A stretch of 64,000 bases of DNA from Daejeonella sp. JGW-45 (GCF_029360805.1 NZ_JARKNC010000006.1:64199-128198); one strand, 5' to 3'; shown: positions 23,262 to 52,817, counted from the first letter of the stretch. A program made the numbers and translations. Notes: generated by a model from the sequence alone, not told the origin.

Positions 23262-24572
23262 ATGAAGCGTAGAGAACTCCTTAAATACCTGTCAATAGTA
23301 CCGGTATCCGGTGCTGTAGCGGGTGCTATCATGCCGTACCAGTCAAATGCAGAAGAACTAACAACTTATGAGCCGGCCCGTCAATCTGGTCCGAAGCGCA
23401 TTGCTGCGATTATTAGTGTATATTTTACCGGCTCACATGCAGATGTGATTGTTGGAAAGTATCTTGAGGGTTATAATCAGGACGAGGCTGCTCCCTATCC
23501 AGAGTCAAAGATTGTGTCAATGTTCCTTGAGCAGTTTGGTGAGGGGGGCGCTGGCCGAGGTGACATTAGCCGAGAGATGTCGAAGAAGCACAATGTTCCA
23601 ATCTTCAGGACAGTAGCTGATGCACTGACCTTAGGAGGTGATAGCCTTGCCGTTGATGGGGTAATATTAATAGGAGAACACGGTACGTATCCTATGAATG
23701 ATAAGGAACAAAAGTTATATCCAAGGTTCGAAATGTTCCTTAAGATCACTGACGCGTTCCGCCAGTACAAGAAGTCGGTTCCGGTTTTTAATGATAAACA
23801 CTTATCGTGGAGCTGGAGACAGGCTAAGCGAATGGTTGAAATCTCGAAAGAATTGAAGTTTCCAATGTTTGCAGGTTCTACAGTTCCGGTTTCAGTGCGT
23901 ATCCCGGCTATAGATACACCTTATGGTGTAAAGCAGAAATATGCGGTTGGGATTTCCTTTAGCGGCCTAGATATTTATGGGTTTCACTTATTAGATGGTT
24001 TGCAAGCTGTGGTGGAAAGAAGAAAGGGAGGCGAAACGGGTGTCCGAGCTGTGCAGTGCCTTGAAGGTCAGGACTGCTGGAATTATCTAGAGCAGAACGA
24101 TTGGGTTAAGCGGCTTTTCGATCAGGCAATTTCTCACAGCGAAACCCGCGTAGCAGGCAATATGAAGGAACTTGTGAAGAAGCCCGCGGTCTTTATTATA
24201 GATTATAATGACGGACTGAAGGCTGCTGCATTTCTGTTAACAGGTCTTGTTCAGGACTTTACTTATGCGATAGATCTGGAAGGCCGGCAAAAGCCATTCT
24301 CTACACTGATGAAGTTGCAGGCAGGGAAGCCACATTATCATTTTGGCTGCCTGGTTAAGCATATGGAGAGTATGTTTAAAACGGGCAAAGCCCCCTATCC
24401 GGTGGAGCGTACAATGCTCAGCAGCGGAATCCTTGACTTTGCCCTTGAATCCCGGATATTAGGTTATAAGAAGCTCGAGACTCCGGAATTATCACAGGTA
24501 CGCTACACCAGTCCCTCTGAGTCCTTTTTCTTTTCTAAAGGATGGGATCAAAACGGGAAGAGGTTAGATTGA
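23262..24572 (+). CDS. Uncharacterised Tat-exported protein, copy 1
   Basis: I do not recognise a characterised function. The 436-aa protein has a Tat-like signal (RRELLK at residues 3-8, hydrophobic IVPVSGAVAGAIM) and is probably periplasmic. It shares blocks with the protein at 35091: IISVYFTGSHADVIVGKYLEG, ALTLGGDSLAVDGVILIGEHGTYP in part, KLYPRFEMF, KKSVPVF, FAGSTVP, VVERRKGGETGV. The mix of hydrophobic beta-strands and helices with repeated Gly, His and Glu suggests a Rossmann-like alpha/beta fold, possibly remotely similar to Gfo/Idh/MocA proteins, but no GxGxxG motif is evident. It opens the catabolic island, 101 bp after susD B. Confidence 0.75.
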   Translation: MKRRELLKYLSIVPVSGAVAGAIMPYQSNAEELTTYEPARQSGPKRIAAIISVYFTGSHADVIVGKYLEGYNQDEAAPYPESKIVSMFLEQFGEGGAGRGDISREMSKKHNVPIFRTVADALTLGGDSLAVDGVILIGEHGTYPMNDKEQKLYPRFEMFLKITDAFRQYKKSVPVFNDKHLSWSWRQAKRMVEISKELKFPMFAGSTVPVSVRIPAIDTPYGVKQKYAVGISFSGLDIYGFHLLDGLQAVVERRKGGETGVRAVQCLEGQDCWNYLEQNDWVKRLFDQAISHSETRVAGNMKELVKKPAVFIIDYNDGLKAAAFLLTGLVQDFTYAIDLEGRQKPFSTLMKLQAGKPHYHFGCLVKHMESMFKTGKAPYPVERTMLSSGILDFALESRILGYKKLETPELSQVRYTSPSESFFFSKGWDQNGKRLD

Positions 24573-24647
24573 TGACTCCGCAGCTTATTCACGAGACGCT
24601 TAAAAATATTTTAATTATTCATTCCTAAACGTTTAAAAACAAATAAC

Positions 24648-25895
24648 ATGAGGAAGTTCTACATTTTTTTTGCAAGTGTTCTTTTACCGGTCGCACTGCT
24701 GGCCCAACCTAAGCCCTACAATATTATTATTAAAGGTGGTCATGTTATTGACCCGAAAAATAATATCAACCGTGTGATGGATGTGGCAATTGCTAATGGC
24801 AAGGTAGCAAAAATTGCTACAGGTATTGATGCCTCGCAGGCAAGTAGTGTGGTTAACGCCGAGGGTATGTATGTTACCCCGGGCCTGATTGATATCCACG
24901 GCCACGTTTTTGCAGGAACGCAGCCCAATCAGATGTACAGTAATGGTTTCAGTAGTGTCATGCCTGATGGTTTTTATCAGCGTGTTGGTGTAACAACAGT
25001 AGTTGACGCCGGCGGTACAGGATGGAAGGATTTTCCGATCTTCAAAAAAAACATCATCGATAATTCTCAAACCCGTGTACTTTCCTTTATGAATATCGTG
25101 GGCAGCGGGATGCGTGGCGGCCCTGTCGAACAAAATGTCGACGACATGGACCCGGTAAAGACTGCTGAGGCTGCCATGGCCAATAAAGAATATGTAGTCG
25201 GGATTAAGGTAGCGCATTTTACTTCGCCTAGTTTTGTGAACGTGGACCGGGGAGTAGAGGCTGGAAAAATTGCCAATATGCCTGTTATGATCGACTTCGG
25301 GGGCACAAAACCCAGGTTGTCGATACGCGACTTGTTCATGACCCACCTTCGCCCGGGAGATATATTCACACATACTTTTGGCGAGCTTCTGGATACCAAA
25401 GAGGCCATAGTAGATACCGGTACTCAAAAATTGAAGCCTTTTGTACTTGAAGCGCAGAAGCGCGGGATTGTTTTTGACGTCGGCTACGGCGGCTCAAGTT
25501 TTACCTATTCCCAGGCTATTCCTGCCGCGAAGGCTGGATTTCACCCCAATACAATCAGCACCGATCTTCATATCAGCAGTATGAAAGGGTCAATGAAAGA
25601 TATGCTTAGCGTGATGTCTAAGTTTTTAAAGCTGGGAATGGACCTTCCTTCCGTTATAAAAGCAAGCTCATGGGCGCCGGCACAGGCTATAAAACGTACC
25701 GAACTGGGGCATCTTTCTGAGGGTGCAATCGCAGATATTGCCATCCTCGGCATGAGGAAGGGAAACTTTGGTTTTTATGACCTTGCAGGTTACAAAATGC
25801 AAAGCAACGAAAAGCTTGAGTGTGAAATGACTATCAAGGACGGACGGATCGTCTATGACCTTAACGGCATCGTGACGCCACTGCCTAAACGTTAA
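24648..25895 (+). CDS. Exported amidohydrolase, COG3964/EF_0837-like family, copy 1
   Basis: Metal-dependent amidohydrolase-superfamily enzyme of 415 aa with a Sec signal peptide (about 1-20, ending LLAQ), so periplasmic. The HxH metal pair is His84/His86 (IDIHGHVF), the likely carboxylated Lys is Lys187 (VGIKVAH), His242 is in DIFTHTF, and the strand-8 Asp is Asp306 (ISTDLH). Two departures stand out: strand 5 reads MIDFGG with Asp216 where I expect His, and DVGYGG has Tyr280 where copy 2 has His. Relatives are annotated as deacetylases or dihydroorotase-like. Removal of an N- or O-acyl group is the best guess. Followed 25 bp later by a PLP enzyme. Confidence 0.88.
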   Translation: MRKFYIFFASVLLPVALLAQPKPYNIIIKGGHVIDPKNNINRVMDVAIANGKVAKIATGIDASQASSVVNAEGMYVTPGLIDIHGHVFAGTQPNQMYSNGFSSVMPDGFYQRVGVTTVVDAGGTGWKDFPIFKKNIIDNSQTRVLSFMNIVGSGMRGGPVEQNVDDMDPVKTAEAAMANKEYVVGIKVAHFTSPSFVNVDRGVEAGKIANMPVMIDFGGTKPRLSIRDLFMTHLRPGDIFTHTFGELLDTKEAIVDTGTQKLKPFVLEAQKRGIVFDVGYGGSSFTYSQAIPAAKAGFHPNTISTDLHISSMKGSMKDMLSVMSKFLKLGMDLPSVIKASSWAPAQAIKRTELGHLSEGAIADIAILGMRKGNFGFYDLAGYKMQSNEKLECEMTIKDGRIVYDLNGIVTPLPKR

Positions 25896-25920
25896 AGCTC
25901 CATTTTAAAAGCAGGCTATT

Positions 25921-27135
25921 ATGAAACGCAGAGAAATACTGAAAACATTAACCATCCTGCCCCTTGCGGGAACTATTTCGGCGGCGGCTAAGCCCGTTTC
26001 AGCTTTGTCAACCCAACTGGCGGAACGTGATCTTTATGCTGAGTTAGGTCTGAGGACGTTTATTAACGCTGCTGGAAACTATACCGCTATGACTGGGTCG
26101 ATTATGCCCGATGAGGTGATGTCGGCAATTAACGCTTCATCCAAAAAGTTTGTCAAACTTGATGAGCTGCAGGATAAGGTAGGAGAAAAGATCGCTGCAC
26201 TTTGCAGGGCAGAAGCTGCTATGGTAACTGCCGGCTGCTGGTCGGCGCTTACTCTTGGGATGGCTGGTGTATTGACGGGCTTAGACGAAAAGAAAGTAAG
26301 CCAGGTGCCAAACCTTGCTGGCACAGGTATGAAAACGGAGGTTATTCTCCAAAAGAGCCACTCTTTGGGATATGATCATGCGCTCACGCAGGCAGGTGTT
26401 AAACTGATCAAGGTTGAAACAAGGGCTGAGCTCGAAAAGGCAATAAATTCTCGAACTGCGATGCTCTGGTTCCTCAACAGAGAGGCGCCTAAAGGCCAGA
26501 TCAAACACGAAGAGTGGATCGAACTTGGAAAGAAATATAACCTGCCAACGATGATCGACATTGCCGCAGATGTGCCTCCGGTTGAGAATCTGTGGAAGTT
26601 TAACGAGATGGGGTTTGATCTTGTTGCTATATCAGGAGGTAAGGCTATGCGCGGCCCTCAGAGTGCCGGTATCCTGATGGGGAAAAGAGATCTCGTTGCA
26701 GCAGCCAGACTTAGCAATAATCCAAGAGGGGGCATAGGACGGGGACAGAAGGTGAATAAAGAGGAAATTCTTGCCATGTACGTAGCACTCGAGCGTTTTA
26801 TCAATCTCGATCACAAAAAGGAGTGGAAGCAATGGGAAAACAAAATAGCGCTCATTGACAACAGCATAAAATCAATTCCGGGAATCTCTACTGAAGTGGT
26901 CGTGCCCCCCACAGATAACAATATGCCCACTCTTTTAATATCCTGGAATCCTCAGACGATTCGATCAACCCATACCCAAATGGGAGAAAAACTACGCTTT
27001 GGGAACCCATCCATCGAAGTGATTTCCTGGGAAAAAGATAATAGTATCCGTGTTGCGATGCATTGTCTCCAACCCGGCGAAGAGAAAATTGTGGCACGCA
27101 GAATTAAAGAAGAACTTGTTAATGCATCAATATAA
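25921..27135 (+). CDS. Tat-exported SelA/DgaE-like PLP-dependent enzyme, copy 1
   Basis: Fold-type I PLP enzyme of 404 aa from the SelA-related group that includes D-glucosaminate-6-phosphate ammonia-lyase DgaE. The PLP-binding Lys is Lys241 in AISGGKAMRGPQS, with MIDIAAD (211-217) as the preceding cofactor-Asp strand. The N-terminus carries a twin-arginine motif (RREILK, 3-8) and a hydrophobic stretch, so the folded, cofactor-loaded enzyme is expected in the periplasm, which is unusual for a PLP enzyme. It lies between two amidohydrolase genes. Expected chemistry is ammonia elimination from a 2-amino-3-hydroxy acid. It is not selenocysteine synthase: it is exported and lies in a catabolic context. 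Confidence 0.87.
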   Translation: MKRREILKTLTILPLAGTISAAAKPVSALSTQLAERDLYAELGLRTFINAAGNYTAMTGSIMPDEVMSAINASSKKFVKLDELQDKVGEKIAALCRAEAAMVTAGCWSALTLGMAGVLTGLDEKKVSQVPNLAGTGMKTEVILQKSHSLGYDHALTQAGVKLIKVETRAELEKAINSRTAMLWFLNREAPKGQIKHEEWIELGKKYNLPTMIDIAADVPPVENLWKFNEMGFDLVAISGGKAMRGPQSAGILMGKRDLVAAARLSNNPRGGIGRGQKVNKEEILAMYVALERFINLDHKKEWKQWENKIALIDNSIKSIPGISTEVVVPPTDNNMPTLLISWNPQTIRSTHTQMGEKLRFGNPSIEVISWEKDNSIRVAMHCLQPGEEKIVARRIKEELVNASI

Positions 27136-27149
27136 ATAAATAGAAATCA

Positions 27150-28397
27150 ATGAAGCGATTATTTTTAACCTTATCACTTGCTCTTCTTTGCTTTGGAGCT
27201 TATTCTCAGGCTTATACAACCTTGCTAAAAGGAGGACATTTGATTGACCCGAAGAACGGGATTAATAAATTAATGGATGTGGCCATTCAGGACGGCAAAA
27301 TTGCCGCGGTTGCAGCTAATATTGATCCTAAGCAAGCAAAGCAGGTAATTGATATTACCGGAAAGTACATTACTCCCGGATTGATAGACATTCACGGGCA
27401 CGTTTTTGCCGGCACAGATCATGATGGTCACCTGGAAAACGGGTTTGCATCCCTTCCAGCTGATGGTTTTACTTTTCGTGTTGGTGTGACTACGATTGTT
27501 GACGCCGGCGATGCGGGTGCTGAGACTTTCGAACTGTTTAAGAAGAATGTGATAGACAAATCGCAAACCCGCGTGCTGGCATTTTTGAACGTATCCAAAA
27601 AAGGAATGTATGGAGATGAAAATTCGTTGGAACAACAAAATAACAGTTTTTTTGATGCTCGTATGGCCGCGGACGTAGCCAAACACTACAAAGATCACAT
27701 CGTGGGGATAAAAGTGGCACATTACCATAAGTCAGACTGGGTTGCCGTTGATCGTGCAGTCGAGGCAGGTAAGCTTGCTGGTATGCCAATCATGGTTGAC
27801 TTTGGGGGTACCGTTCCTCGCTTATCATTGGAAGAGCTGTTCCTTAGAAAGATGCGTCCTGGTGATATCTTTACTCATACTTATGGAGAGCTTATCAAAA
27901 CTAAGGAGACCATAGTGGATATCCAGACAAAAAAGCTGATGCCATTTGTTCTCGAAGCCCGTAAACGAGGAATTATTTTTGATGTTGGCCATGGTGGCGG
28001 AAGTTTTACTTTCTCTCAAGCTATTCCGGCAACTCAGCAAGGCTTCTTTCCCGAAACCATTAGCACAGATCTACATACCGGCAGTATGAATTCAGCAATG
28101 AAGGACCAATTGAACGTAATGTCTAAATTCATGGCTATGAACATGCCTTTGGCAGATGCGGTTAAGGCAAGTACCTGGTCTGCAGCAAGGGCGATAAAAC
28201 GTGAAGAACTGGGGCATCTTTCTGTAGGCGCTATTGCAGATGTTACGGTACTGAACCTGCGTGAAGGGAAATTCGGGTTCTATGATGTAGCCAGATTCAA
28301 GAAAGAAGGCAAAAATCTACTGGAATGTGAAATGACTATAAAAGGAGGACGGATGGTTTATGACCTGAATGCCCTGTCTTTTCCACCAGCTAAATAG
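27150..28397 (+). CDS. Exported amidohydrolase, COG3964/EF_0837-like family, copy 2
   Basis: Paralogue of the enzyme at 24648 with the same length (415 aa) and a Sec signal peptide (about 1-20, FGAYSQ). Metal and active-site candidates: His82/His84 (IDIHGHVF), Lys188 (VGIKVAHYHK), Asp217 in MVDFGG in place of the usual strand-5 His, His243 (DIFTHTY), His281 in DVGHGG and Asp307 (ISTDLH). Unlike copy 1 it keeps His281, so it looks the more canonical of the two. It follows the PLP enzyme by 14 bp. Two diverged copies may handle different acyl groups or stereoisomers. Confidence 0.88.
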   Translation: MKRLFLTLSLALLCFGAYSQAYTTLLKGGHLIDPKNGINKLMDVAIQDGKIAAVAANIDPKQAKQVIDITGKYITPGLIDIHGHVFAGTDHDGHLENGFASLPADGFTFRVGVTTIVDAGDAGAETFELFKKNVIDKSQTRVLAFLNVSKKGMYGDENSLEQQNNSFFDARMAADVAKHYKDHIVGIKVAHYHKSDWVAVDRAVEAGKLAGMPIMVDFGGTVPRLSLEELFLRKMRPGDIFTHTYGELIKTKETIVDIQTKKLMPFVLEARKRGIIFDVGHGGGSFTFSQAIPATQQGFFPETISTDLHTGSMNSAMKDQLNVMSKFMAMNMPLADAVKASTWSAARAIKREELGHLSVGAIADVTVLNLREGKFGFYDVARFKKEGKNLLECEMTIKGGRMVYDLNALSFPPAK

Positions 28398-28540: not shown

Positions 28541-28558
28541 TAAAAATATTATATACTT

Positions 28559-29098
28559 ATGAAAAATCATTTCACAGCAGTCCTTTTTATACTCTTAACA
28601 TCTATTCTTGCTTTTAGTTCGGCAAATGCCCAATCGGTAGATCCCGAAACCAGGATAAAGGAGCTGGGAATTACACTGCGCGTTCCTGGGCCGCCTACAG
28701 CAAATTTTGTCGGTGCCGTTCGGGTTGGCAACCTGGTGTATTTGTCAGGACAAGGCCCCCTCAAAGCAGACGGGAAATACATGATAGGAAAAGTAGGGAA
28801 GGAAGTGAATTTTGAGCAGGCTAAATATGCAGCCCGCTTAACCGGTATCAGTCTGCTGGAAGCACTCAGGGCTAGCATTGGTAATCTAAATAATGTAAAG
28901 CGTATAGTAAAGGTATTGGGTATGGTCAACGCTGTACCTGAATTTGATAACCATTCGCAGGTGATCAATGGATTTTCAGATCTGATGGTCGAGGTATTCG
29001 GAGAAAACGGAAAACACGCCCGTTCGGCGATAGGACTGGGATCGTTGCCGCGAAACATCCCGGTCGAGATCGAGATGATTGTTGAACTTAAGGACTAA
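28559..29098 (+). CDS. Secreted RidA (YjgF/YER057c/UK114) family protein
   Basis: RidA-type enamine/imine deaminase of 179 aa with a Sec signal peptide (about 1-25, SSANAQ), so periplasmic rather than cytosolic. The mature part is a complete RidA domain: VYLSGQGPL (60-68), then RSAIGLGSLPRNIPVEIE, which keeps the Arg (Arg155) and downstream acidic residue (Glu172) associated with deaminase activity. RidA proteins hydrolyse reactive 2-aminoacrylate-type products of PLP-dependent lyases. Its place between the amidohydrolase/PLP block and the second PLP gene fits that role in the same compartment. Confidence 0.9.
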   Translation: MKNHFTAVLFILLTSILAFSSANAQSVDPETRIKELGITLRVPGPPTANFVGAVRVGNLVYLSGQGPLKADGKYMIGKVGKEVNFEQAKYAARLTGISLLEALRASIGNLNNVKRIVKVLGMVNAVPEFDNHSQVINGFSDLMVEVFGENGKHARSAIGLGSLPRNIPVEIEMIVELKD

Positions 29099-29287: not shown

Positions 29288-30520
29288 ATGAAACGTAGAG
29301 ACGTCATTAAATTATTATCCGCTGCGCCAATTGCCGGCGGATTGATGAGTGCCATTCCAATTCATTCTGCATCAGCCGCTGAGGCGGCAGTTCCAGTAGC
29401 CGCGCGGGACCTTTTTAAAGAACTCGGACTTAAGACATTTATTAATGCATCGTGTGTATGCACGAGTCTAACTGCTTCTCTAATGCCACCTGAGGTTACC
29501 CAGGCAATTTCAAAAGGGGCGGAAGAATTTGTGTTATTGAATGATGTCTTAGATAAAGTCGGGGAAAAGATCGCAGAATTATGTCACGCGGAAGCAGCCA
29601 CCGTTACCGCGGGATGTTGGTCAGCATTGGTACAGGGCCTCGCAGGGGCCATGACCGGAATGGACCGTGCAAAAGTAATGCAGCTTCCAAATGTGGATGG
29701 AATGAAATCTGAAGTGATCCTTCAGAAATCGCATGCGAACGGCTATCATCAGGCACTAAAGAATACAGGCGCTACTCTAATAATTGTTGAAACTCTTCAA
29801 GAGGTTGAGGCGGCTATCAATGAAAAAACTGCCATGCTATGGTTCCTGAACAGGGAATTGAACAAGGGACAAATAAAATATGATCAGTGGATTGCCTTGG
29901 GTAGAAAACATAAGATACCAACCATGATTGATATTGCTTCCGATGCACATCCGGTAGATAATCTTTGGAAATTTAACGATATGGGTTTCGACCTGGTAGC
30001 TATCTCGGGAGGCAAAGCGATGAGGGGCCCGCAAAGCACCGGCATCCTCATGGGCAAGAAGGATCTGATTGCTGCAGCGCGTTTAAGTGCACCGCCAAAC
30101 AGCGGTATTTGCCGCGGGCATAAAGTGAATAAAGAGGAGATACTTGCGATGTATGTTGCGCTGGAGAGGCACATTAAGATGGATCATGTTAAGGAATGGA
30201 AGGCATGGGAAGATAGTATGGCCGTTGTCGTAAATACAATAAAAAATATCAAGGGGGTGAAGACCGAGGTGTTTATCCCGGAAATTGCTAACTATACCCC
30301 GACCTTGCATCTCTCATGGGATCCTGGTATTATTAAAATGACGGGAAAGGATCTTAAACAACGTTTGTGGAACGGGGACCCAGGTATCGAAGTTATGGGC
30401 GGCGGCACCATGGGCGGAAAAAAGGATGGGATTGAGCTATCCGTGTGGCAGCTGAAACCAGGCCAGGATAAAATTGTAGCTACTCGGGTTAAAGAGGAAT
30501 TACAGAAAGCATCGGTTTAG
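29288..30520 (+). CDS. Tat-exported SelA/DgaE-like PLP-dependent enzyme, copy 2
   Basis: Paralogue of the enzyme at 25921, 410 aa, with a twin-arginine-type signal (RRDVIK, residues 3-8, then SAAPIAGGLMSAIPIHSASA). The PLP Lys is Lys243 in AISGGKAMRGPQS, with MIDIASD before it. Compared with copy 1 it differs near the substrate side (FINASCVCTSLTAS versus FINAAGNYTAMTGS) and has a Gly-rich insert near the C-terminus (VMGGGTMGGKKDG), so specificity may differ. It is preceded by a fecR remnant and followed 24 bp later by a symporter, suggesting that its product is imported. Confidence 0.87.
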   Translation: MKRRDVIKLLSAAPIAGGLMSAIPIHSASAAEAAVPVAARDLFKELGLKTFINASCVCTSLTASLMPPEVTQAISKGAEEFVLLNDVLDKVGEKIAELCHAEAATVTAGCWSALVQGLAGAMTGMDRAKVMQLPNVDGMKSEVILQKSHANGYHQALKNTGATLIIVETLQEVEAAINEKTAMLWFLNRELNKGQIKYDQWIALGRKHKIPTMIDIASDAHPVDNLWKFNDMGFDLVAISGGKAMRGPQSTGILMGKKDLIAAARLSAPPNSGICRGHKVNKEEILAMYVALERHIKMDHVKEWKAWEDSMAVVVNTIKNIKGVKTEVFIPEIANYTPTLHLSWDPGIIKMTGKDLKQRLWNGDPGIEVMGGGTMGGKKDGIELSVWQLKPGQDKIVATRVKEELQKASV

Positions 30521-35090: not shown

Positions 35091-36464
35091 ATGAAAAAAG
35101 AAAGCACCAATGCCCGCAGGGACTTTATTAAAAAGACAGTCTTCACTGCAGCAGGTTTAAGTATTGTCCCTGGCTTTGTACTCGGAACGGATGGTAGTAT
35201 CACCTCAATAACCGACCAGTTGTCGAGAGCTCTCGCCGGGCAGGATGGAATTAAGAAAATTGCATTCATTACACACATTTACAGAAATGCTGCCCATGCC
35301 GATGTTATCGGAACTAAATTATTTCTGGGTATCCCAACCGATGAAGGTATGGTAGCGCCACAGGTAAAAATTGCTTCAATATATATTGAACAAATTGGGG
35401 CAAACGATACGGGTGTCAGAATTGCAAAAATGAATAACGCACCGCTTTATTCTACAGTGGAGGAAGCATTAACCCTTGGTGGCGACAAACTTGCTGTAGA
35501 TGCTGTTGTGTATGTGGGAGAGCATGGAGAATATCCCTACAACAGGCTGGGCATGAAATTGTACCCACGTATGAATTACCTGGAAAGGATATTCAGAGTG
35601 TTTGACGCATCGAAAAAATCAGTACCTGTATTTACCGATAAAGCACTCTCTTACAGCTGGCTGGATAGCCGATGGATCTATGATCGTGCAAAGGAACTGA
35701 ATGTTCCGATGATGGCAGGTTCATCCTTACCATACTGCTGGAGAGATAAACCCTTGGAACATCCCCTTGGAGTTAAAATATCAGAAGCGGTAGCTATTGG
35801 TTATGCCTCACTGGATGCCTACGGTTTTCACGTAACTGAAATTCTGCAGTGTATGGTTGAGAGACGAGCCGGCGGGGAAACTGGCGTAAAAAGTGTCGAA
35901 GGCTTGAAGGGAGATGATGTTTGGAAAGCTATCGATTCAGGAAAGATTTCTCAAAAGCTGGTTGATGCAGCCTGCGACACCATACAGGGCAAGGCTACGG
36001 GTAATATGCGCGAGATTGTAACAACACCTTATGCTGTTATAGTTAATTATGCAGATGGCACTAAGGGTACAATCATGATGCTCGATAAATATGTCAATTC
36101 AGGTTGGGCTTATTCTGCAAAAACTTCAAAAGGAATCGTCGCAACTGAATTTGTACTTAGTGGCGGTCCAACTTATGCTCATTTTAGCTATCTAAGCCTG
36201 AATATTCAAAAGTTTATAGTTTCAGGTAAGCCCACTGCTCCTATAGAACGGAACTTGTTAACCAGTGGGATTATTGATATGGGAATCCGTTCTTTGAATG
36301 AAGGGGCGGTTAAAAAGACGCCTTTCCTGAACATCAAGTATAGCGCAGATGGTTATGAACCGATCAGACCTACCGCACCACGCCCAACCGGACAAAGCAT
36401 AGCTCCCTGGCACCCTAAGGAGTACGACTTTATGATTCCGGATAACTTTAAGAAAAAGGGATAA
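35091..36464 (+). CDS. Uncharacterised Tat-exported protein, copy 2
   Basis: Paralogue (457 aa) of the protein at 23262; function not recognised. It has a twin-arginine signal (RRDFIKK, residues 9-15, then TVFTAAGLSIVPGFVLG). Shared conserved blocks: HADVI, ALTLGGDKLAVDAVVYVGEHG, KLYPRMNYLERIF, KKSVPVFTDKALSYSW, MMAGSSLP, MVERRAGGETGVKSVEG. The C-terminus is longer than in copy 1 and Pro-rich (PTAPRPTGQSIAPW). Bracketing the amidohydrolase/PLP block with two copies suggests a role in the same periplasmic pathway. Any call as dehydrogenase or isomerase would be a guess. Confidence 0.75.
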   Translation: MKKESTNARRDFIKKTVFTAAGLSIVPGFVLGTDGSITSITDQLSRALAGQDGIKKIAFITHIYRNAAHADVIGTKLFLGIPTDEGMVAPQVKIASIYIEQIGANDTGVRIAKMNNAPLYSTVEEALTLGGDKLAVDAVVYVGEHGEYPYNRLGMKLYPRMNYLERIFRVFDASKKSVPVFTDKALSYSWLDSRWIYDRAKELNVPMMAGSSLPYCWRDKPLEHPLGVKISEAVAIGYASLDAYGFHVTEILQCMVERRAGGETGVKSVEGLKGDDVWKAIDSGKISQKLVDAACDTIQGKATGNMREIVTTPYAVIVNYADGTKGTIMMLDKYVNSGWAYSAKTSKGIVATEFVLSGGPTYAHFSYLSLNIQKFIVSGKPTAPIERNLLTSGIIDMGIRSLNEGAVKKTPFLNIKYSADGYEPIRPTAPRPTGQSIAPWHPKEYDFMIPDNFKKKG

Positions 36465-36563: not shown

Positions 36564-38351
36564 ATGAACATCCGTTCCGTTATTGCCAATAGAGGTTCTT
36601 TTGGCATGAAATCATACATCCTGGTCGTTTTGGCTTTTCTTATCACAATAGGATTTGTAGAGTCGCGTGATCAGAAAGGACTGCCGGATAGTAGCTCAGA
36701 TAATGGCGGGCTGTTCCTCCCGGGAGGGTTCAATGCTGTTGTTGTAGCCGATTCTCTCGGACGGGCAAGACATCTTGCGGTTAATAAGAATGGAGATATT
36801 TATGTAAAGCTCAGAATTCCGGTTAATGGGAAAGGAAGCGTTGCGTTACGGGATACAGATAATGATGGCAGGGCAAATAAAATTGAATATTTCGGCGATT
36901 ACCCAGATGTCGGAAATTACGGCACCGCCATGAGGATACACAATGGCTACCTTTATTTTACTACTGCAGCAGAGGTTTATCGTATAAAGCTTAGCCCGGG
37001 AAAATTAATTCCTGAGGGCAAATCAGAATTACTTCTTACTGATGATTACCTGAATGATATCCATGGATATTCTCATATTGCTAAGCCTCTTGCCTTCGAT
37101 AATAAGGGAAATATGTATGTACCTTTTGGGTCGCCAGGAGACGTATGCCAATTAAAGAATAAGCAACCGGGCTCCCCGGGACATGATCCTTGCCCTGAGC
37201 TTAAAGAACACGCCGGTATCTGGAAATTTAGTGATAGCAAGCTCAATCAGACCCTGAAAGATGGTACCAGATATGCAACCGGCATCAGAAGTGCTGTAGC
37301 AATGGATTGGAATAAATCTGATAATACTTTATATGTTCTTCAGCACGGTAGAGATGGTTTGAACAGAGGATGGCCAGATATTTATAACCCATGGCAGAGT
37401 GCTTTACTTCCCTCAGAAGAATTTTTTAAGGTTCCTGAAGGAACTGATGGTGGATGGCCATATTATTATTATGATTATATGCAGGGTAAGAAACTTCTTA
37501 ATCCTGAATATGGTGGTGATGGAGTCAAAGAAGGGAACGCTAAACAGGTGGCGCAGCCTTTAGTTGGGTTCCCGGGTCATTTTGCGCCTAATGACCTCTT
37601 CTTTTATACAGGAGATCAATTTCCTGAACGCTACAAGAATGGTGCTTTTATAGCGTTTCACGGCTCCACAATCCGGGCACCTTATCCGCAAGGTGGCTAT
37701 ATAATAGGTTTTGTCCCGTTTAAGAATGGAGCTCCTTCCGGCGATTGGGAGGTTTTTGCAGATGGGTTTCCTGTGGTTGATACAATTGTGAATACCAGTG
37801 ATGCGGTTTATCGTCCGATGGGTATTGCTATGGGCCCTGATGGTTCTCTGTATTTATCTGAAAGTGAAAAAGGCAAAATATGGAGGGTAATGTATAAAGG
37901 AGATAAGAAAAAATTCAGTAATCAGGATTTGGTTGAAATGCAAAAAAGAAAGGAAACTCAACCCCATATTAAAACCCCCGATATTATAAAGGACAACCTT
38001 AACCGAGGTCAAATATTAGCCGGCGAAAAGCTCTATGCAGCCTATTGTGGTACCTGCCATCAGGGTAATGGCAGGGGAGATGGAACACGTTTCCCTCCTC
38101 TTGAGAAATCAGAATGGGTAAGAGGTGATAAAAGAAAATTGATCAGTATTGTATTGAACGGTCTTTCAGGACCTATCACTGTCAATGGTGTCGGGTACAA
38201 TGAGACAATGCCACCGCATAACTATTTAAAGGATGATCAGATTGCTCAGATTTTAACCTATGTCAGAGCAAATTTCAAAAACAACGCGAATGCAGTTTCA
38301 GCAGCTGAGGTTAGCAGAGAACGTAAATCAGGAACAAATTCGGGGAATTAA
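36564..38351 (+). CDS. Exported sorbosone/aldose dehydrogenase-like beta-propeller fused to cytochrome c, copy 1
   Basis: Periplasmic redox protein of 595 aa. An N-terminal signal/anchor (MKSYILVVLAFLITIGF; start ATG 36564, or 36606 if shorter) is followed by a six-bladed propeller of the L-sorbosone/pyranose dehydrogenase type (about 50-445; RARHLAVNKNGDIYVKL, SHIAKPLAFDNKGNMYVPFG, YATGIRSAVAMDWN, MGIAMGPDGSLYLSE) and a C-terminal cytochrome c with CGTCH at 495-499 and a Met549 ligand in ETMPP. Related propellers use PQQ. The haem would pass electrons to the respiratory chain. A CBM9-like gene follows after 3 bp. Confidence 0.87.
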   Translation: MNIRSVIANRGSFGMKSYILVVLAFLITIGFVESRDQKGLPDSSSDNGGLFLPGGFNAVVVADSLGRARHLAVNKNGDIYVKLRIPVNGKGSVALRDTDNDGRANKIEYFGDYPDVGNYGTAMRIHNGYLYFTTAAEVYRIKLSPGKLIPEGKSELLLTDDYLNDIHGYSHIAKPLAFDNKGNMYVPFGSPGDVCQLKNKQPGSPGHDPCPELKEHAGIWKFSDSKLNQTLKDGTRYATGIRSAVAMDWNKSDNTLYVLQHGRDGLNRGWPDIYNPWQSALLPSEEFFKVPEGTDGGWPYYYYDYMQGKKLLNPEYGGDGVKEGNAKQVAQPLVGFPGHFAPNDLFFYTGDQFPERYKNGAFIAFHGSTIRAPYPQGGYIIGFVPFKNGAPSGDWEVFADGFPVVDTIVNTSDAVYRPMGIAMGPDGSLYLSESEKGKIWRVMYKGDKKKFSNQDLVEMQKRKETQPHIKTPDIIKDNLNRGQILAGEKLYAAYCGTCHQGNGRGDGTRFPPLEKSEWVRGDKRKLISIVLNGLSGPITVNGVGYNETMPPHNYLKDDQIAQILTYVRANFKNNANAVSAAEVSRERKSGTNSGN

Positions 38352-38354
38352 CAC

Positions 38355-39131
38355 ATGAATTATTTAAACTATTTACTTATCCTTTTTTTGCCTCTGTTTC
38401 ACTCAGGCTCTGGACTAAAGCAAGGCAAACTGGATCGCGGCTTAGTTCTGAACGAGCAAAAACCGGAAGAATCCGTTTATAAAGTGGTAAAATTAAAGAA
38501 GCCAATTAAGATGGATGCAAATTGGAATAAGCCCCAATGGAAGAAGATCGAAGCCATCAACATTGACAAATACATGGGCAAAATACCTGGATTTAGACCT
38601 GAGGTACAAGCGAAAATGATGTACGATGATGATAACGTTTATGTTATCTTTCGAGTTAAGGATCGGTTTGTCCGCAGTGTGGTTCAGGAATATAATGGAA
38701 ACGTATCAGGCGATTCCTGTGTGGAATTCTTTTTTTCTCCGGATGCCAGTATTCCGCTGAAATACTTCAACCTCGAGGTTAATGCCGGCGGTACTCCTCT
38801 TATTTTTTATGTTGAGAAGCCGTGGACGGGTTTTGTGAAGCTAAAGACAGACGAAATTAAACAAATAGAAATCGCTCATTCTTTACCTTCAAAGATTGAC
38901 CCGGAAATTAAAGAGCCGGTAACCTGGACCATAGAATACAGGGTTCCGCTAGCGATGCTTAAGAGGTATTCCAATGTGAGTGATCCTGCTCCGGGAGTAA
39001 CCTGGAAGGCTAACTTTTACAAAACAGGGAGTTTGACTTCCAACCCGAATTGGATAACATGGGCTTATGTAGATAAACCCCGGCCAGATTTTCACACTCC
39101 TCATTTTTTTGGGACACTAAAGTTTCAATAG
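38355..39131 (+). CDS. Exported CBM9-like carbohydrate-binding protein, copy 1
   Basis: Protein of 258 aa with a short signal peptide (LLILFLPLFHSGSG) and a single family-9-like carbohydrate-binding/DOMON-type beta-sandwich: KMDANWNKPQWKKIEAI, MMYDDDNVYVIFRVKDRFV, GDSCVEFFFSPD, YFNLEVNAGGT, WTIEYRVPL, WKANFYKTG. CBM9 modules of xylanases bind reducing ends of sugars, while related folds bind haem. It begins 3 bp after the dehydrogenase stop, so the two are translated together and probably work as a pair, for example presenting the sugar end to the oxidase. Confidence 0.85.
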   Translation: MNYLNYLLILFLPLFHSGSGLKQGKLDRGLVLNEQKPEESVYKVVKLKKPIKMDANWNKPQWKKIEAINIDKYMGKIPGFRPEVQAKMMYDDDNVYVIFRVKDRFVRSVVQEYNGNVSGDSCVEFFFSPDASIPLKYFNLEVNAGGTPLIFYVEKPWTGFVKLKTDEIKQIEIAHSLPSKIDPEIKEPVTWTIEYRVPLAMLKRYSNVSDPAPGVTWKANFYKTGSLTSNPNWITWAYVDKPRPDFHTPHFFGTLKFQ

Positions 39132-39260
39132 AAGAAATAAACTTTGTGCGGAGATTTTGAATTTGGTAACTAAGATATATTTCTTGACGGATCGAATCGA
39201 TTTATAGAATGACGATTATCAGATTGCTTTAAATAGCTATGCAAAAAATGAAATTTAATA

Positions 39261-39306
39261 AGGCCGGTATTTTTTTAATATATACTAGAAATAATACGCC
39301 GGTTAT
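39261..39306 (+). terminator. Hairpin between the two dehydrogenase/CBM9 units
   Basis: CCGGTATT and AATACGCCGG in this interval form an imperfect stem (2-nt bulge) around an AT-rich loop, in the 241-bp gap between the duplicated units. It could be a weak terminator for unit 1 or part of the leader of unit 2. The gap also must hold any promoter of unit 2, but no perfect box was found. Confidence 0.35.
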
Positions 39307-39372
39307 TTGGAAAATCAGGAAAAAGTAAGCAATATGCATCATATTTAAACTCTACTAACAAACTTCATAAAA

Positions 39373-41151
39373 ATGAAAATTAACTTAAAATATTTTTACA
39401 GGGTGGCTACTAAAACCAAGCTTTTTGTGCTAGCAGTTTTGACCTGTTTAATTACTCTTAGTTTCGTACGCTCTGGCGGGGTTGGCAAGCTGCCAGATCA
39501 ATCACCAAAAAATGGAGGATTGTTCCTTCCAGGTGGTTTTGAAGCAGTTGTAGTCGCTGATTCTGTAGGCAGGGCGAGGCATCTGGCTGTAAATTCGAAT
39601 GGCGATGTGTATGTGAAACTGAGAAACCCGATAAACAAAAAGGGAAGTATAGCCTTGCGCGACACGAATAAGGATGGGAAAGCGGATATCATTGAATTAT
39701 TTGGCGACTATCGTGATGAAGGGAACTATGGAACGGCAATGCGTATCCATAAGGGATATCTTTATTTTACTACCGCGGGCGAGGTTTATCGCACAAAACT
39801 TACGCCGGGTAAGTTAATTCCGGAAGGCAAAACAGAACTACTTTTAACAGATGATTACAAGAATGCTAAGTACGGGTCATCGCATATTGCGAAGCCATTG
39901 GCATTTGACGATGAAGGAAATATGTATGTGCCTTTCGGTTCGCCGAGTGATGTTTGCGGGATAAAAGATCGTCAGCCAGGTTCCCTTGGCCAGGATCCCT
40001 GTCCGGAATTACAAGACCATGCAGGTATATGGAAATTCAGTGACAGCAAGCCAAACCAGACACAAAAGGATGGAGTTAGGTATGCTACCGGAATTCGCAG
40101 CGTAGTAGCTATGGAGTGGAATAAAAAAGAAAAAGCATTATATGCAGTACAGCATGGAAGGGATGACTTTGTCCGCCAATTCCCAGACTTTTATAATCCA
40201 TGGCAAAGTGCATTACTGCCAGCGGAGGAATTCTTCAAGGTAACTGAGGGTTCCGACGGCGGCTGGCCGTATGCATACTATGATTACATGCAGGGCAAAA
40301 AGCTGTTGAATCCGGAATATGGCGGAGATGGAAAGAAGGTGCCAACCAAGAAATACATGGATCCTCTTGTAGGTTTTCCTGGCCACTTCGCACCAAACGA
40401 TTTATTCTTCTATACCGGAAACCAATTTCCTGATCGTTACAAGGACGGCGCTTTTGTTGCCTTTCACGGGTCTACTATTCGCTCACCTTACCCACAGGGA
40501 GGATATTTTATTGGCTTCGTACCGATGAAGAACGGTTTGCCATCCGGCGACTGGGAGGTATTCGCCGATGGATTCCCTGTAGTTGATACCATCATTAATA
40601 CCAGTAATGCGTTATACCGGCCAATGGGTATTGCTATGGGGCCTGATGGATCCCTGTACTTCTCTGAAAGTGAAAAAGGCAAGATCTGGCGGGTAATGTA
40701 TAAAGGGGATAAAAAGAAATTCAGCGCAGCGGACCTGACAGCAATGCAAAAGCGGAAGGAAACCCAGCCGCATATTAAGACACCTGATATCATTAAAGAC
40801 AATGTAAATACAGCCAAAATTGCTGCTGGTGCGAAGCTTTATAATACCTATTGTGCATCCTGCCACCAAGTTGATGGAAAAGGGGATGGTACCCGGTTCC
40901 CCCCACTCGAGAACTCAGAATGGGTTAAGGGTGATCGCAGGCGCCTAATCAGTATTGTTCTAAATGGACTTAGTGGTCCGATAACAGTAAACGGCGTAGG
41001 GTACAACGAAGTTATGCCGCCGGCCAATTATCTTAGTGATGACCAGATCGCTTTGATCCTGACCTATGTCAGAGCTAACTTCAAAAACAATCTTACCGGT
41101 GTCCTGCCACAGGAGGTTGCCAGAATGCGTGCGATGCCAAAAACTCCGTAA
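39373..41151 (+). CDS. Exported sorbosone/aldose dehydrogenase-like beta-propeller fused to cytochrome c, copy 2
   Basis: Tandem paralogue (592 aa) of the protein at 36564, alignable over its whole length with few gaps. Signal/anchor: TKLFVLAVLTCLITLSFV. The propeller has the same landmarks (RARHLAVNSNGDVYVKL, SHIAKPLAFDDEGNMYVPFG, NDLFFYTGNQFP) and the cytochrome c domain has CASCH at 494-498 and a VMPP Met ligand. The clearest difference is near residues 320-330 (KKVPTKKYMD versus VKEGNAKQVAQ). The copies may differ in sugar preference, or one may be an expression backup. Downstream gene starts 3 bp after its stop. Confidence 0.87.
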   Translation: MKINLKYFYRVATKTKLFVLAVLTCLITLSFVRSGGVGKLPDQSPKNGGLFLPGGFEAVVVADSVGRARHLAVNSNGDVYVKLRNPINKKGSIALRDTNKDGKADIIELFGDYRDEGNYGTAMRIHKGYLYFTTAGEVYRTKLTPGKLIPEGKTELLLTDDYKNAKYGSSHIAKPLAFDDEGNMYVPFGSPSDVCGIKDRQPGSLGQDPCPELQDHAGIWKFSDSKPNQTQKDGVRYATGIRSVVAMEWNKKEKALYAVQHGRDDFVRQFPDFYNPWQSALLPAEEFFKVTEGSDGGWPYAYYDYMQGKKLLNPEYGGDGKKVPTKKYMDPLVGFPGHFAPNDLFFYTGNQFPDRYKDGAFVAFHGSTIRSPYPQGGYFIGFVPMKNGLPSGDWEVFADGFPVVDTIINTSNALYRPMGIAMGPDGSLYFSESEKGKIWRVMYKGDKKKFSAADLTAMQKRKETQPHIKTPDIIKDNVNTAKIAAGAKLYNTYCASCHQVDGKGDGTRFPPLENSEWVKGDRRRLISIVLNGLSGPITVNGVGYNEVMPPANYLSDDQIALILTYVRANFKNNLTGVLPQEVARMRAMPKTP

Positions 41152-41154
41152 AAG

Positions 41155-41922
41155 ATGAATATTATTAATTATCTGTTAGTAATTATCCTGCCAGTATTTT
41201 ATGCTGGTGGGATGGTTACCAATTCTAAAAGTAAAGCAGTTACAATGGAAGTAAATGAAGCCCCGGTTTATAAAGTCGAAAGGCTCAAGAAGAAACTTAA
41301 GATCGACGGGGATTGGAATAAGGCACAATGGAAAAAAATTGAACCTATTCGTATCACTAATTACATGGGTAAAATACCTCCATTCCAACCTGAAGTACAG
41401 TCAAAAATGATGTACGATGATACGCACGTATATGTCATCTTTCAGGTCAAGGACCGTTTTGTAAAAAGCGTTGTCACTGAATACAACGGAAACGTGTCTG
41501 GTGATTCCTGCGTTGAGTTCTTTTTCTCGCCTGATGAGCAGTTCCCTCTGAAATATTTTAATCTTGAGATAAATGCCGGGGGTACGCCGCTCATGTTCTA
41601 CATCGAAAAGCCAATGACAGAATTAATAAAGCTGCCTGGTGACGACTTGAAACAAATTGAAATTGCGCACTCTTTACCTAAAACTGTTGACCCTGAAATT
41701 GCCGAGCCGGTAACCTGGACTATTGAATACAGTATACCGCTTTCCCTCTTAAGTAAGTACTCTAATCTTACCCGCCCTGCTAAAGGCGTAAACTGGAAAG
41801 CGAATTTTTATAAAACGGGCAGCAGGACTTCCAATCCTAATTATATTACCTGGGCTGTAGTGGATAACCCAAGGCCTAATTTTCATTTACCTCAGTTCTT
41901 CGGAACAATACAATTTCAGTAA
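41155..41922 (+). CDS. Exported CBM9-like carbohydrate-binding protein, copy 2
   Basis: Tandem paralogue (255 aa) of the protein at 38355, with a hydrophobic signal (YLLVIILPVFYAGG) and the same beta-sandwich blocks (KIDGDWNKAQWKKIEPI, MMYDDTHVYVIFQVKDRFV, GDSCVEFFFSPDEQ, WTIEYSIPL, WKANFYKTGS). The stop-to-start spacing to its dehydrogenase is identical to unit 1 (3 bp), showing that the two-gene unit was duplicated as a whole. Ligand unknown; a sugar or sugar acid is likely from the family. Confidence 0.85.
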   Translation: MNIINYLLVIILPVFYAGGMVTNSKSKAVTMEVNEAPVYKVERLKKKLKIDGDWNKAQWKKIEPIRITNYMGKIPPFQPEVQSKMMYDDTHVYVIFQVKDRFVKSVVTEYNGNVSGDSCVEFFFSPDEQFPLKYFNLEINAGGTPLMFYIEKPMTELIKLPGDDLKQIEIAHSLPKTVDPEIAEPVTWTIEYSIPLSLLSKYSNLTRPAKGVNWKANFYKTGSRTSNPNYITWAVVDNPRPNFHLPQFFGTIQFQ

Positions 41923-41943
41923 AACAGCTGTATAGGATCTATT

Positions 41944-42879
41944 ATGGAACGGCTAACGGTTATTGGTTCTGGCACCATGGGTCACACTATAACCCTGAAT
42001 GCTGCATGGGCCGGTATTCCGGTCAATATGTACGGACTGACCGAGAGTGATTGTGCGGCGGGTATCGATGGAATCCGCAGGAAACTCGAGGTTCTTGTAA
42101 GCAATGAGCTTATAGATGCTTCTGAAGTTGGCGGGATCATCGGACGAATACGGCCTTTGAGTTCACTGAAAGATGCTGTCAAAAAAGCGGATTTTATTAT
42201 CGAGTGCGTCCCTGAGGATATCGCTCTTAAAAACAATTTATTCCGCCAGTTAGATCTTGAATGTGGACCTGGTGTAATTCTGGCAAGCAATACGTCCGGC
42301 TTACAGCTTTCTGATATTGCAAGAGGTACACGCTATCCCGAGCGTATCTTAATTACACATTTCTGGAACCCGGCTCATCTTGTGCCCCTGGTGGAGGTGC
42401 TAAGAATGCCGGTAACAAGAGAGGAGGTGTTTTCGCGAACAATGGCTTTGCTCAAACTTATGGACAAGAGGGCAATAGAAGTCAGAAAAGAAGTTCCGGG
42501 ACTGGTTGGAAACCGTTTGCAGTTTGCACTTTTCCGCGAAGCTCAGCATCTGCTTGATCAGGGTGTTGCTACCAAAGAAGATATCGATGCTGCTGTGACC
42601 TTCGGTATAGGCAGAAGACTGTCTGTAACCGGTCCCCTGTTATCCGCGGACATGGGAGGACTGGATGTTTTTGATTCTGTATCAAATAATCTTTTCAAAT
42701 ATATAAGTAAGGCCGAACAATCTTACCCAGAACTGCAGAAGCTCGTTTCTGAAAAAAAATACGGAAGTAAAAACGGCCAGGGTTACTACGAATGGGATGA
42801 GCAATTTTCTGCCAGGATGAATGAGTTGAGAGAGCAGGAACTTATCCGTTTGAAAAAGGCCGACCAATTGACTAAATAA
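41944..42879 (+). CDS. 3-hydroxyacyl-CoA dehydrogenase family protein
   Basis: Cytosolic NAD-dependent dehydrogenase of 311 aa. It has the Rossmann motif GSGTMG (residues 8-13), IIECVPEDIALKNNLF, SNTSGLQLSDIA, the catalytic His in THFWNPAHLVPLVEV, and VPGLVGNRLQ at the start of the C-terminal domain. The single-domain length fits stand-alone enzymes of the group, which oxidise 3-hydroxybutyryl-CoA but also non-CoA 3-hydroxy acids such as L-carnitine and L-gulonate. In this setting a 3-hydroxy acid substrate is as likely as a CoA ester. It starts 21 bp after the CBM9-like gene and precedes the aminotransferase-like gene by 32 bp. Confidence 0.88.
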   Translation: MERLTVIGSGTMGHTITLNAAWAGIPVNMYGLTESDCAAGIDGIRRKLEVLVSNELIDASEVGGIIGRIRPLSSLKDAVKKADFIIECVPEDIALKNNLFRQLDLECGPGVILASNTSGLQLSDIARGTRYPERILITHFWNPAHLVPLVEVLRMPVTREEVFSRTMALLKLMDKRAIEVRKEVPGLVGNRLQFALFREAQHLLDQGVATKEDIDAAVTFGIGRRLSVTGPLLSADMGGLDVFDSVSNNLFKYISKAEQSYPELQKLVSEKKYGSKNGQGYYEWDEQFSARMNELREQELIRLKKADQLTK

Positions 42880-52808: not shown

Positions 52809-52817
52809 GAAAAGGCA

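Follow-up and report, generated by a model that had tools for sequence, protein, structure and literature searches.

Gene content of the locus

A 64,000-nucleotide stretch of the genome of Daejeonella sp. JGW-45 (NZ_JARKNC010000006.1:64199-128198; 4.1 Mb in ten contigs), hereafter the window, carries a run of genes for predicted exported amidohydrolases, pyridoxal phosphate (PLP) enzymes and a RidA-family protein. An initial annotation of the sequence had proposed that the genes at positions 23262-42879 specify a periplasmic route for oxidation, deacylation and deamination of amino sugars or related compounds. Pfam and NCBIfam scans found all of the genes it named, and the unit proved to be wider, beginning with sigma factor, FecR and SusC/SusD genes (16142-23160) and ending with an aminotransferase and an FAD/Fe-S oxidase (42912-47125). 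The SusC/SusD pair and the sigma/anti-sigma regulators, identified with Pfam, make it a SusCD-linked utilization locus. We estimate a probability of about 0.5 that it is one of several duplicated SusCD-linked modules in which catabolic deamination would take place outside the cytoplasm. Every reaction and substrate discussed here is inferred from protein families, next to gene content, predicted export signals, co-occurrence and active-site changes that were observed directly.

Three kinds of protein form the core of the module, and this gene trio is secure. The two amidohydrolases (AH1 and AH2) exceed the NF006689 cut-off of 371 bits (Table 1), and the PDB relatives of AH1 are 8je0, 2ogj and 2ics. 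Enzymes of the amidohydrolase superfamily presumably bind metal through an HxH motif, a Lys, a His and an Asp; in an alignment of 97 rows (AH1 entered twice), H84 is kept in 97, H86 in 95, K187 in 96, H242 in 97 and D306 in 97. COG3964 enzymes of the Atu3266 type act on N-acetyl-D-amino acids. At least 12 AH copies occur in one genome. The two PLP enzymes resemble SelA and DgaE (SEL1 and SEL2; collectively SELs). Their matches to TIGR01437, the DgaE family, lie well below its cut-off of 385.3 bits, and SEL1 scores 139.5 bits against NF047797, which has a cut-off of 600. The closest solved relatives of SEL1 are the D-glucosaminate-6-phosphate ammonia-lyase (DGL) of Salmonella (7lc0) and 8t7j. 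The third protein, RidA, retains the conserved catalytic arginine of Rid proteins (presumably Arg105), as do all 5 of the 5 Rids aligned. Its nearest structures are 3d01, PA0814 (9bk9) and ACIAD3089 (9bkb), the last two of which are described as Rid1 proteins with imine deaminase activity (PMC5619798).

Both fusions of a sugar-dehydrogenase-like domain to cytochrome c (GSDHc1 and GSDHc2) pass the Pfam GSDH cut-off. In a Foldseek search, a predicted model of GSDHc1 (pLDDT 68.7) matched aldose dehydrogenases and an AA12 pyranose dehydrogenase best, and other propellers ranked lower; the match to 6jt5 had an E-value of 4.6e-17 and a TM score of 0.67 by target and 0.48 by query at 16% identity. 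The modeled fold thus appears nearest to a sugar-dehydrogenase-like beta-propeller, in keeping with the sorbosone/aldose dehydrogenases named by the initial annotation.

HYPa and HYPb are 39% identical to each other, with many invariant residues. Neither has a match in Pfam or NCBIfam at E 0.001, and only two weak matches appeared at E 5; a PDB search gave just a Tat signal match (E 0.69), and an AlphaFold model of HYPb from three sequences had a pLDDT of 44. Assignment to Gfo/Idh-like oxidoreductases was considered and left unproven; for a HYPa/HYPb profile against a Gfo/Idh/MocA protein, hhalign gave a probability of 4.3, which is not a meaningful match. The M81 protein resembles MlrC at 125.5 bits, against an exception cut-off of 999 bits; this similarity suggested microcystin-type peptides as a substrate of the M81/GGT module, with nothing else in support. 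The FAD/4Fe-4S oxidase is presumably of the D-lactate/glycolate dehydrogenase type.

Gene order is near-identical in six sister genomes, over the adjoining stretches L049/L050, L051/L052, L053/L054, L055/L056, L057/L058 and L059/L060, where a sigma/FecR pair likewise precedes SusC1. Unlike the window, the sister genomes have an additional, third SEL, placed between AH1 and SEL1, and a single GSDHc-CBM9 pair rather than two; some have two RidA or two HYPb genes.

Table 1 Features of the locus, with the longer SEL relatives found elsewhere. Positions are those of the window unless a stretch is named.
Feature	Position	Strand	Basis
ECF (extracytoplasmic function) sigma factor and FecR anti-sigma pair, 5' of SusC1/SusD1	16142..17977	+	Pfam Sigma70_r2/r4_2, FecR/FecR_C
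SusC1/SusD1, TonB-dependent outer-membrane importer	18073..23160	+	Pfam
HYPa, predicted exported by the twin-arginine translocation (Tat) route, paralogue of HYPb	23262..24572	+	no family match; alignment with HYPb
AH1, predicted exported COG3964-type amidohydrolase, N-deacylase candidate	24648..25895	+	NF006689 422.9 bits
SEL1, predicted Tat-exported SelA/DgaE-like PLP enzyme, ammonia-lyase candidate, PLP Lys241	25921..27135	+	TIGR01437 164.9 bits, below cut-off; PDB 7lc0 E 1.8e-29
AH2, second predicted exported COG3964-type amidohydrolase	27150..28397	+	NF006689 426.8 bits
RidA, predicted exported Rid1-like imine/enamine deaminase candidate, conserved Arg kept	28559..29098	+	Pfam; PDB 3d01, 9bk9, 9bkb
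SEL2, second predicted Tat-exported SelA/DgaE-like PLP enzyme	29288..30520	+	TIGR01437 156.9 bits, below cut-off
BASS-family symporter, PanS-like, candidate 2-oxo acid importer	30545..31663	+	Pfam SBF; TIGR00841, NF047939 below cut-off
M81 (MlrC-like) hydrolase, no signal peptide at start	31693..33165	+	Pfam DUF1485, MlrC_C
GGT, predicted exported gamma-glutamyltransferase-family hydrolase	33201..35000	+	TIGR00066 367.5 bits, above cut-off
HYPb, predicted Tat-exported	35091..36464	+	no family match
GSDHc1, predicted exported beta-propeller sugar-dehydrogenase-like domain fused to cytochrome c	36564..38351	+	Pfam GSDH 29.9 bits, cut-off 25
CBM9-like protein a	38355..39131	+	Pfam CBM9_2 5.2e-33
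GSDHc2, second such fusion, 75% identical to GSDHc1	39373..41151	+	Pfam GSDH 29.7 bits
CBM9-like protein b	41155..41922	+	Pfam CBM9_2 1.3e-34
HCDH, 3-hydroxyacyl-CoA/hydroxyacid dehydrogenase family (3HCDH), no signal peptide	41944..42879	+	Pfam
GSAM, GSA-aminomutase/GntE-like class III aminotransferase, no signal peptide	42912..44216	+	Pfam, NCBIfam
FAD/4Fe-4S oxidase	44291..47125	+	Pfam FAD_binding_4, FAD-oxidase_C, Fer4
Long SEL	L009:13028-14674	-
Long SEL	L014:9923-11605	+
Long SEL	L018:10302-11918	+
Long SEL	L019:10078-11733	-

Two further regions of the window were noted by eye. A second sigma/FecR set followed by two apparent further SusC/SusD pairs lies at 47256-59534 (with a weak NCBIfam SusD-type match for 57831-59534), and a gene at 8311-9588, flanked by a sigma-factor gene and a FecR-like one that belong to another SusCD locus, encodes a protein that has a Tat-like start and resembles alpha/beta hydrolases of the acetyl-xylan-esterase type.

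Recurrence and predicted export of the gene trio

The initial annotation had staked its proposal on the same genes occurring together in other genomes, and they do. One scan of a species-genome collection gave 22 named loci with an SEL, 13 of which had an AH nearby. A family search at E 1e-30 found SELs in 25 of 151 genomes; 14 of these were members of the genus, including the window's genome, with 4 to 12 scored copies each (long SELs counted), and at least five genus members among the genomes listed had none. In a class-wide sample at E 1e-40, SEL and AH were each present in 1 of 149 genomes, in both cases the window's own. From the family search we chose 60 stretches, dropped the repeat loci L024 and L043 and left out partial SELs shorter than 330 residues, which left 43 records with 94 short SELs, to which the window's genome contributes five. 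At least 13 further places with short SELs lie outside this sample, many on low-numbered stretches of fragmentary contigs. Neighbors were labeled by their best BLAST hit to a reference set, and some stretches end at contig ends.

An AH lay within 10 kb of 80 of the 94 SELs, and within 2.5 kb of 61. In the window's genome at least 5.2% of bases are within 10 kb of an AH (14 AH places are known there and more may exist), so the association exceeds chance; all five short SELs of that genome have an AH within 10 kb. The same distance from an SEL contained a Rid in 59/94 cases, best-hit relatives of SusC1 in 59 and of SusD1 in 56, GSDHc in 34, BASS in 29, M81 in 23 and RraA in 15.

The accompanying genes define several module types. 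Type A, defined by DgoK and KDPG (2-keto-3-deoxy-6-phosphogluconate) aldolase, comprises 7 SELs in 6 records, with a galactonate-like transporter of the major facilitator superfamily (MFS; TIGR00893 232 bits, below the 395 cut-off) near 6, a BNR protein near 5 and a sulfatase near 3; the only DgoK found in the window's genome sits in such a sister module. LctP defines type B, whose 9 SELs, in 9 records, all have SSF nearby and in 6 cases a DUF5009 protein; type C is defined by BASS with an exported RraA (6 SELs, 6 records). The window belongs to type D, defined by BASS and M81, with 23 SELs in 11 records; Rid is near all 23, AH near 22, GGT near 21 and HYP near 20. Outside the genus, type D occurs in Larkinella arboricola (L026) and in G212, a genome of a second genus whose module includes a GSAM relative 73% identical to that of the window. 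Type E, defined by a lipoprotein-like Rid, has 9 SELs; one of its loci, L082, has as neighbors a NagB-like gene, two GlcNAc-2-epimerase-family (N-acetylglucosamine 2-epimerase) proteins and a GSDHc. Judged by size alone, other type E loci of sister genomes have a gene like the NagB-like one at the same place, and the window genome's own type E member (C4:419k) has no gene of that size there. RraA but not BASS accompanies a further seven SELs; the remaining 33, among them one at L074 with DctA, belong to no type. SMP-30/lactonase partners accompany other modules, and one module of the window's genome has an M19 dipeptidase and a beta-lactamase-family hydrolase. At L089 we noted HYPa, an SEL, an AH 76% identical to AH2, a GH109-like Gfo/Idh protein, a DUF5009-like protein and GSDH-cytochrome fusions, with neither M81 nor GGT.

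SEL clades follow module type. Types B and E are single clades, and the six labeled states need 9 changes on the SEL tree; all eight groups need 20, against a possible minimum of 7 and a mean of 59.1 over 200 shuffles, none of which came down to 20. The tree was built quickly and has no bootstrap values, its long branches were flagged by the software, and near-copies inflate clustering of this kind.

The trio also extends beyond the Bacteroidota. From 30 of 233 plasmid records with an SEL relative we picked 11 regions for diversity; an AH was near the SEL relative in 6 and a Rid in 7. An acidobacterial (Granulicella) plasmid carries RraA, SEL, RidA, a long SEL, AH and lactonase in a row, with export signals recognized by eye, and on an Enterococcus faecalis plasmid the genes for AH and DgaE, a KDGP aldolase frame and a PfkB kinase gene are consecutive. 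That aldolase frame (L111:8099-8590, plus strand), between DgaE and the kinase, looks short at 163 residues and covers profile positions 2-149 of 218. Plasmids of Aminobacter, Salipiger and Palleronia have AH, RidA (47-55% identical to the window's) and SEL amid ABC transporter genes; no signal peptide was visible by eye in five of these proteins (Aminobacter SEL, RidA and AH; Salipiger SEL and RidA). In Mesorhizobium, M81 and a dipeptide epimerase lie near the SEL. Two haloarchaeal plasmid regions with an SEL relative had neither AH nor Rid annotated; haloarchaeal chitinase clusters are described as having a predicted DGL homologue and RutC-family gene (PMC12343721). Some of these contexts suggest sugar acids as substrates, others peptides or amino acids.

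The initial annotation placed the SELs, both amidohydrolases and RidA outside the cytoplasm, and as a prediction this holds. All 95 aligned SEL rows (94 SELs, with SEL1 present twice) have the twin arginines, at residues 3 and 4, and the window's genome has a TatC gene. We applied a simple, crude signal-peptide rule, scored from the longest start or with any Met in the first 100 residues allowed as start. In the window it recognized AH1, AH2, SEL1, SEL2, RidA, GGT, HYPa, HYPb, GSDHc1 and GSDHc2, and not M81, HCDH, GSAM or the FAD oxidase. From the longest start it recognized 93/103 AHs, 86/101 SELs, 47/57 Rids, 14/14 RraAs, 32/32 GSDHcs, 10/11 GGTs and 19/20 HYPs; with any Met allowed the counts were 100/103, 94/101, 51/57, 14/14, 32/32, 10/11 and 20/20. 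Among proteins expected to be cytoplasmic it recognized 0/29 sigma factors, 0/8 GSAMs, 0/7 DgoKs, 1/7 HCDHs, 1/7 FAD oxidases and 3/7 KDPG aldolases. The looser count overcalls, as seen with M81, recognized in 0/11 cases from the longest start but in 10/11 with inner Mets, and we take M81 as cytoplasmic. The AHs, SELs and Rids are thus very probably exported. The CBM9-like proteins, also called exported in the initial annotation, both match CBM9_2 and have a hydrophobic N-terminus, yet failed the rule, which leaves their export unproven.

SEL active sites and the proposed pathway

One alignment of DGL, the 94 short SELs and the plasmid relatives was used to compare active sites. The PLP lysine (aligned with the SGAK lysine, which is residue 213 in the PDB sequence and Lys-217 in PMC9529869) is kept in 94/94 SELs, and the position of the carboxylate-binding Arg226 is basic in all of them (54 Lys, 40 Arg). 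In DGL the phosphate was placed by manual docking near Arg301, Arg332 and Arg346, His162 and His163 were reported as strictly conserved among DGLs, and the H163A variant was reported to release the enamine (PMC9529869). These arginines occur in 1/94, 2/94 and 0/94 SELs, respectively, His162 in 2/94 and His163 in none. Because the phosphate arginines are lost, the SEL substrate is predicted to be unphosphorylated; because the proton donor His163 is lost and H163A DGL releases enamine, the SEL product is predicted to leave as an enamine, which would explain a dedicated, co-exported Rid. Since SELs fail as DGLs on the features tested, our claim is that an SEL may work like DGL on an unphosphorylated substrate, not that it is a DGL. 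A strict rule, by which SELs without His163 have a Rid nearby and those with it have none, was rejected: six proteobacterial relatives keep His162 and His163, and all six have a RidA beside the SEL.

A second, longer kind of SEL with a Tat signal (about 540-560 residues, PLP lysine kept, C-terminal extension) was also noted, including in Granulicella (Table 1). At L019:7082-11733 (minus strand) it lies beside a CBM9 protein (58% identical to the window's CBM9b), a 2-hydroxyacid dehydrogenase and a glycerate kinase.

In the pathway that we propose, SusCD1 would carry the substrate across the outer membrane, and an aldonic acid would be made by the cytochrome-coupled GSDHc in some modules and by a lactonase elsewhere. 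The exported COG3964 amidohydrolase would remove the N-acyl group; the Tat-exported PLP enzyme would then eliminate the beta-hydroxyl of the free (D-)beta-hydroxy-alpha-amino acid and release an enamine, which the co-exported Rid would hydrolyze to ammonia and a 2-oxo-3-deoxy acid. These three central steps are the more probable part of the scheme. Import of the 2-oxo acid may be by BASS in the window; elsewhere it may be by the galactonate-like MFS transporter, followed by DgoK and KDPG aldolase, or come after cleavage by an exported RraA-type aldolase. Exported RraA accompanies some modules, and an R-D aldolase motif was seen in those of L009, L065, L094, L102 and L105. The order of deacylase, PLP ammonia-lyase, Rid and importer put forward in the initial annotation is supported by these results.

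Amino-sugar acids (2-acylamino-2-deoxy-aldonates) appear the most likely substrate class of the family, a view to which we give an even chance, because some modules include DgoK and KDPG aldolase, lactonases and sugar-dehydrogenase-like proteins occur as partners, L082 has NagB-like and epimerase genes, and DgaE in Enterococcus adjoins a KDGP aldolase. The same substrate is less likely than not for the module in the window, which has neither kinase nor aldolase and in which M81, GGT, HYPa/b, HCDH and GSAM are unexplained. The presence of DgoK, KDPG aldolase and MFS in some modules and of DctA or LctP in others suggests that substrates vary between modules. The amino-sugar substrate of the initial annotation therefore survives in part: sister modules with DgoK, KDPG aldolase, galactonate-like MFS and SMP-30/lactonase genes and the GSDHc fold favor it, but DctA, LctP, M19 and the proteobacterial ABC transporter contexts mean that a single amino-sugar route does not account for every copy. 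Chitin in particular is unsupported as the substrate, the GH18 and GH20 genes being distant from the SEL modules.

N-acyl amino acids or peptides, the alternative substrate of the initial annotation, remain beside amino-sugar acids as a credible choice that we rate clearly below even. The modules would then degrade N-acyl-D-amino acids or D-amino-acid peptides: GGT, M81 and M19 would free N-acyl amino acids, AH would deacylate them, SEL and Rid would turn D-Ser, D-Thr or hydroxyaspartate into pyruvate, 2-oxobutyrate or oxaloacetate, and BASS, LctP or DctA would import these. GGT near 21 of the 23 type D SELs speaks for it, as do the action of Atu3266-type COG3964 enzymes on N-acetyl-D-amino acids, the M19 and beta-lactamase-family genes in a module of the window's own genome, DctA at L074 and LctP at 9 SEL loci, the ABC transporter contexts of Aminobacter, Salipiger and Palleronia, and the M81 and dipeptide epimerase genes of Mesorhizobium; moreover, OngC, a PLP deaminase of amino-sugar acid catabolism, is reported to deaminate D-Ser and D-Thr too (PMC9537276). 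The DgoK and KDPG aldolase modules with their galactonate-like MFS, the partners with a sugar-dehydrogenase fold or lactonase function and the aldolase adjoining DgaE and AH in Enterococcus fit it poorly.

It is unlikely that SEL and AH do other chemistry in glycan use, such as racemization, beta-replacement or lactone hydrolysis, with the 2-oxo acid made by others such as an MR_MLE enzyme and Rid only detoxifying. The SELs do fall below the DgaE subfamily and equivalog cut-offs and have lost several DGL active-site residues, an MR_MLE-family protein with a Tat-like start is found in the DgoK module of L073, and a sulfatase is near 3 of 7 type A SELs. Yet L030 and L088 carry SEL, AH, DgoK, KDPG aldolase and MFS with no sulfatase hit and no gene in the MR_MLE place, and the SEL-AH-Rid trio is kept across Bacteroidota, Acidobacteriota and Proteobacteria. 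Bacteroidota SusCD loci often contain assorted exported enzymes, and HYPa, HYPb, M81 and GGT are unexplained, but conserved co-occurrence, module-specific SEL clades and a background of about 5% make an ordinary SusCD locus with unrelated exported hydrolases and no pathway very improbable.

Several observations weigh against catabolic deamination by the proposed route. At 9 of the 22 named loci the SEL has no AH nearby, which also favors other chemistry. The scheme gives no role to M81, GGT, HYPa/b, HCDH or GSAM, and the window's own module contains no aldolase and, among its scanned genes, no KDG (2-keto-3-deoxygluconate) kinase. In the DgoK module of the window's genome, RraA (L010:9580-10509, minus strand) has lost the R-D motif, and the MR_MLE protein of L073 could yield a 2-keto-3-deoxy acid without SEL. 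An Arg or Lys lies within two columns of R301 in 38/94 SELs and of R332 in 15/94 (none for R346), so the phosphate contact may be displaced at the 301 and 332 positions in these proteins. The link between His163 and Rid is not exclusive, as the six proteobacterial relatives with both His residues lie next to a RidA; these relatives also keep R301 and R332. Chitinase and hexosaminidase genes are present (GH18, 4 matches; GH20, 2 matches) but away from the SEL modules.

More tentatively, whole pathways may be extracytoplasmic in Daejeonella-like and other Bacteroidota and in an acidobacterium, with N-deacylation, elimination, Rid clearance and some RraA aldol cleavage in the periplasm and only 2-oxo acids entering the cell. 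The core (SusCD, SEL, AH and Rid) would have been duplicated and re-targeted, and loss of His163 would have freed the enamine and tied SEL to Rid. Ammonia and the acyl acid would then be freed in the periplasm.

Comparison with known systems

Rid proteins have a cytoplasmic guarding role. They are described as a safeguard when PLP enzymes, among others, release enamines or imines (PMC9529869, PMC5619798). If our reading is right, catabolic deamination would occur outside the cytoplasm with exported PLP enzymes and a dedicated exported Rid. It would offer testable functions for COG3964 amidohydrolases, DgaE-like enzymes, exported RidA and RraA, M81 and BASS, whose family names tell little about substrates, and a means to spot the use of amino-sugar acids or D-amino acids in Bacteroidota genomes. 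Two sharp predictions follow from comparing the active sites: phosphate should not be needed, and the enamine should be released. We found no paper describing an exported SEL-AH-Rid set, a weak absence given that most subscription papers lay outside the search.

The components each have characterized relatives. DGL/DgaE (7lc0, 7lce) is of the same family as the SELs by sequence, with the PLP lysine kept and the carboxylate Arg present as Arg or Lys, but nearly all SELs have lost Arg301, Arg332, Arg346 and His162/163 and gained a twin-arginine signal; DGL, moreover, is reported to use a phosphorylated substrate delivered by a phosphotransferase system (PMC9529869). The window's AHs share the NF006689 assignment and metal-ligand positions with the COG3964 amidohydrolases 2ogj, 2ics and 8je0 and add signal peptides. 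RidA has sequence similarity and the conserved Arg in common with the Rid1 proteins PA0814 and ACIAD3089, and differs in being predicted to be exported and in its linkage to SEL. The proteobacterial plasmid clusters have the same AH-RidA-SEL trio, but their SELs keep DGL His162/163, R301 and R332, which nearly all of the 94 short SELs lack.

The nearest whole system is the ong pathway of Pseudoalteromonas prydzensis ACAM 620 (OngB, OngC, OngD and KdgK), described as deacetylating and deaminating N-acetylglucosaminate (GlcNAc1A) before phosphorylation, in a predicted cytoplasmic location (PMC9537276, PMC12017989). The non-phosphorylative route claimed by the initial annotation, which the loss of the DGL phosphate arginines supports, is consequently not new in itself. 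As described there, the two share TonB-dependent uptake, deamination without prior phosphorylation and an order of steps in which an N-deacetylase of the metal-dependent amidohydrolase kind is followed by a PLP deaminase, a RidA-family protein and use of a 2-keto-3-deoxy acid. They differ in that the ong chemistry is predicted to follow import by an SSS transporter, whereas AH, SEL and Rid are predicted, from sequence only, to be exported. The ong cluster includes a KDG kinase, in contrast to the window module, for which DgoK occurs just in a sister module. The enzymes are also set apart by family, OngB being described as D-aminoacylase-like and OngC as fold-type III, whereas AH is of the COG3964 type and SEL is SelA/DgaE-like. 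The proposed pathway thus resembles ong chemistry, but would proceed outside the cytoplasm and be carried out by other enzyme families.

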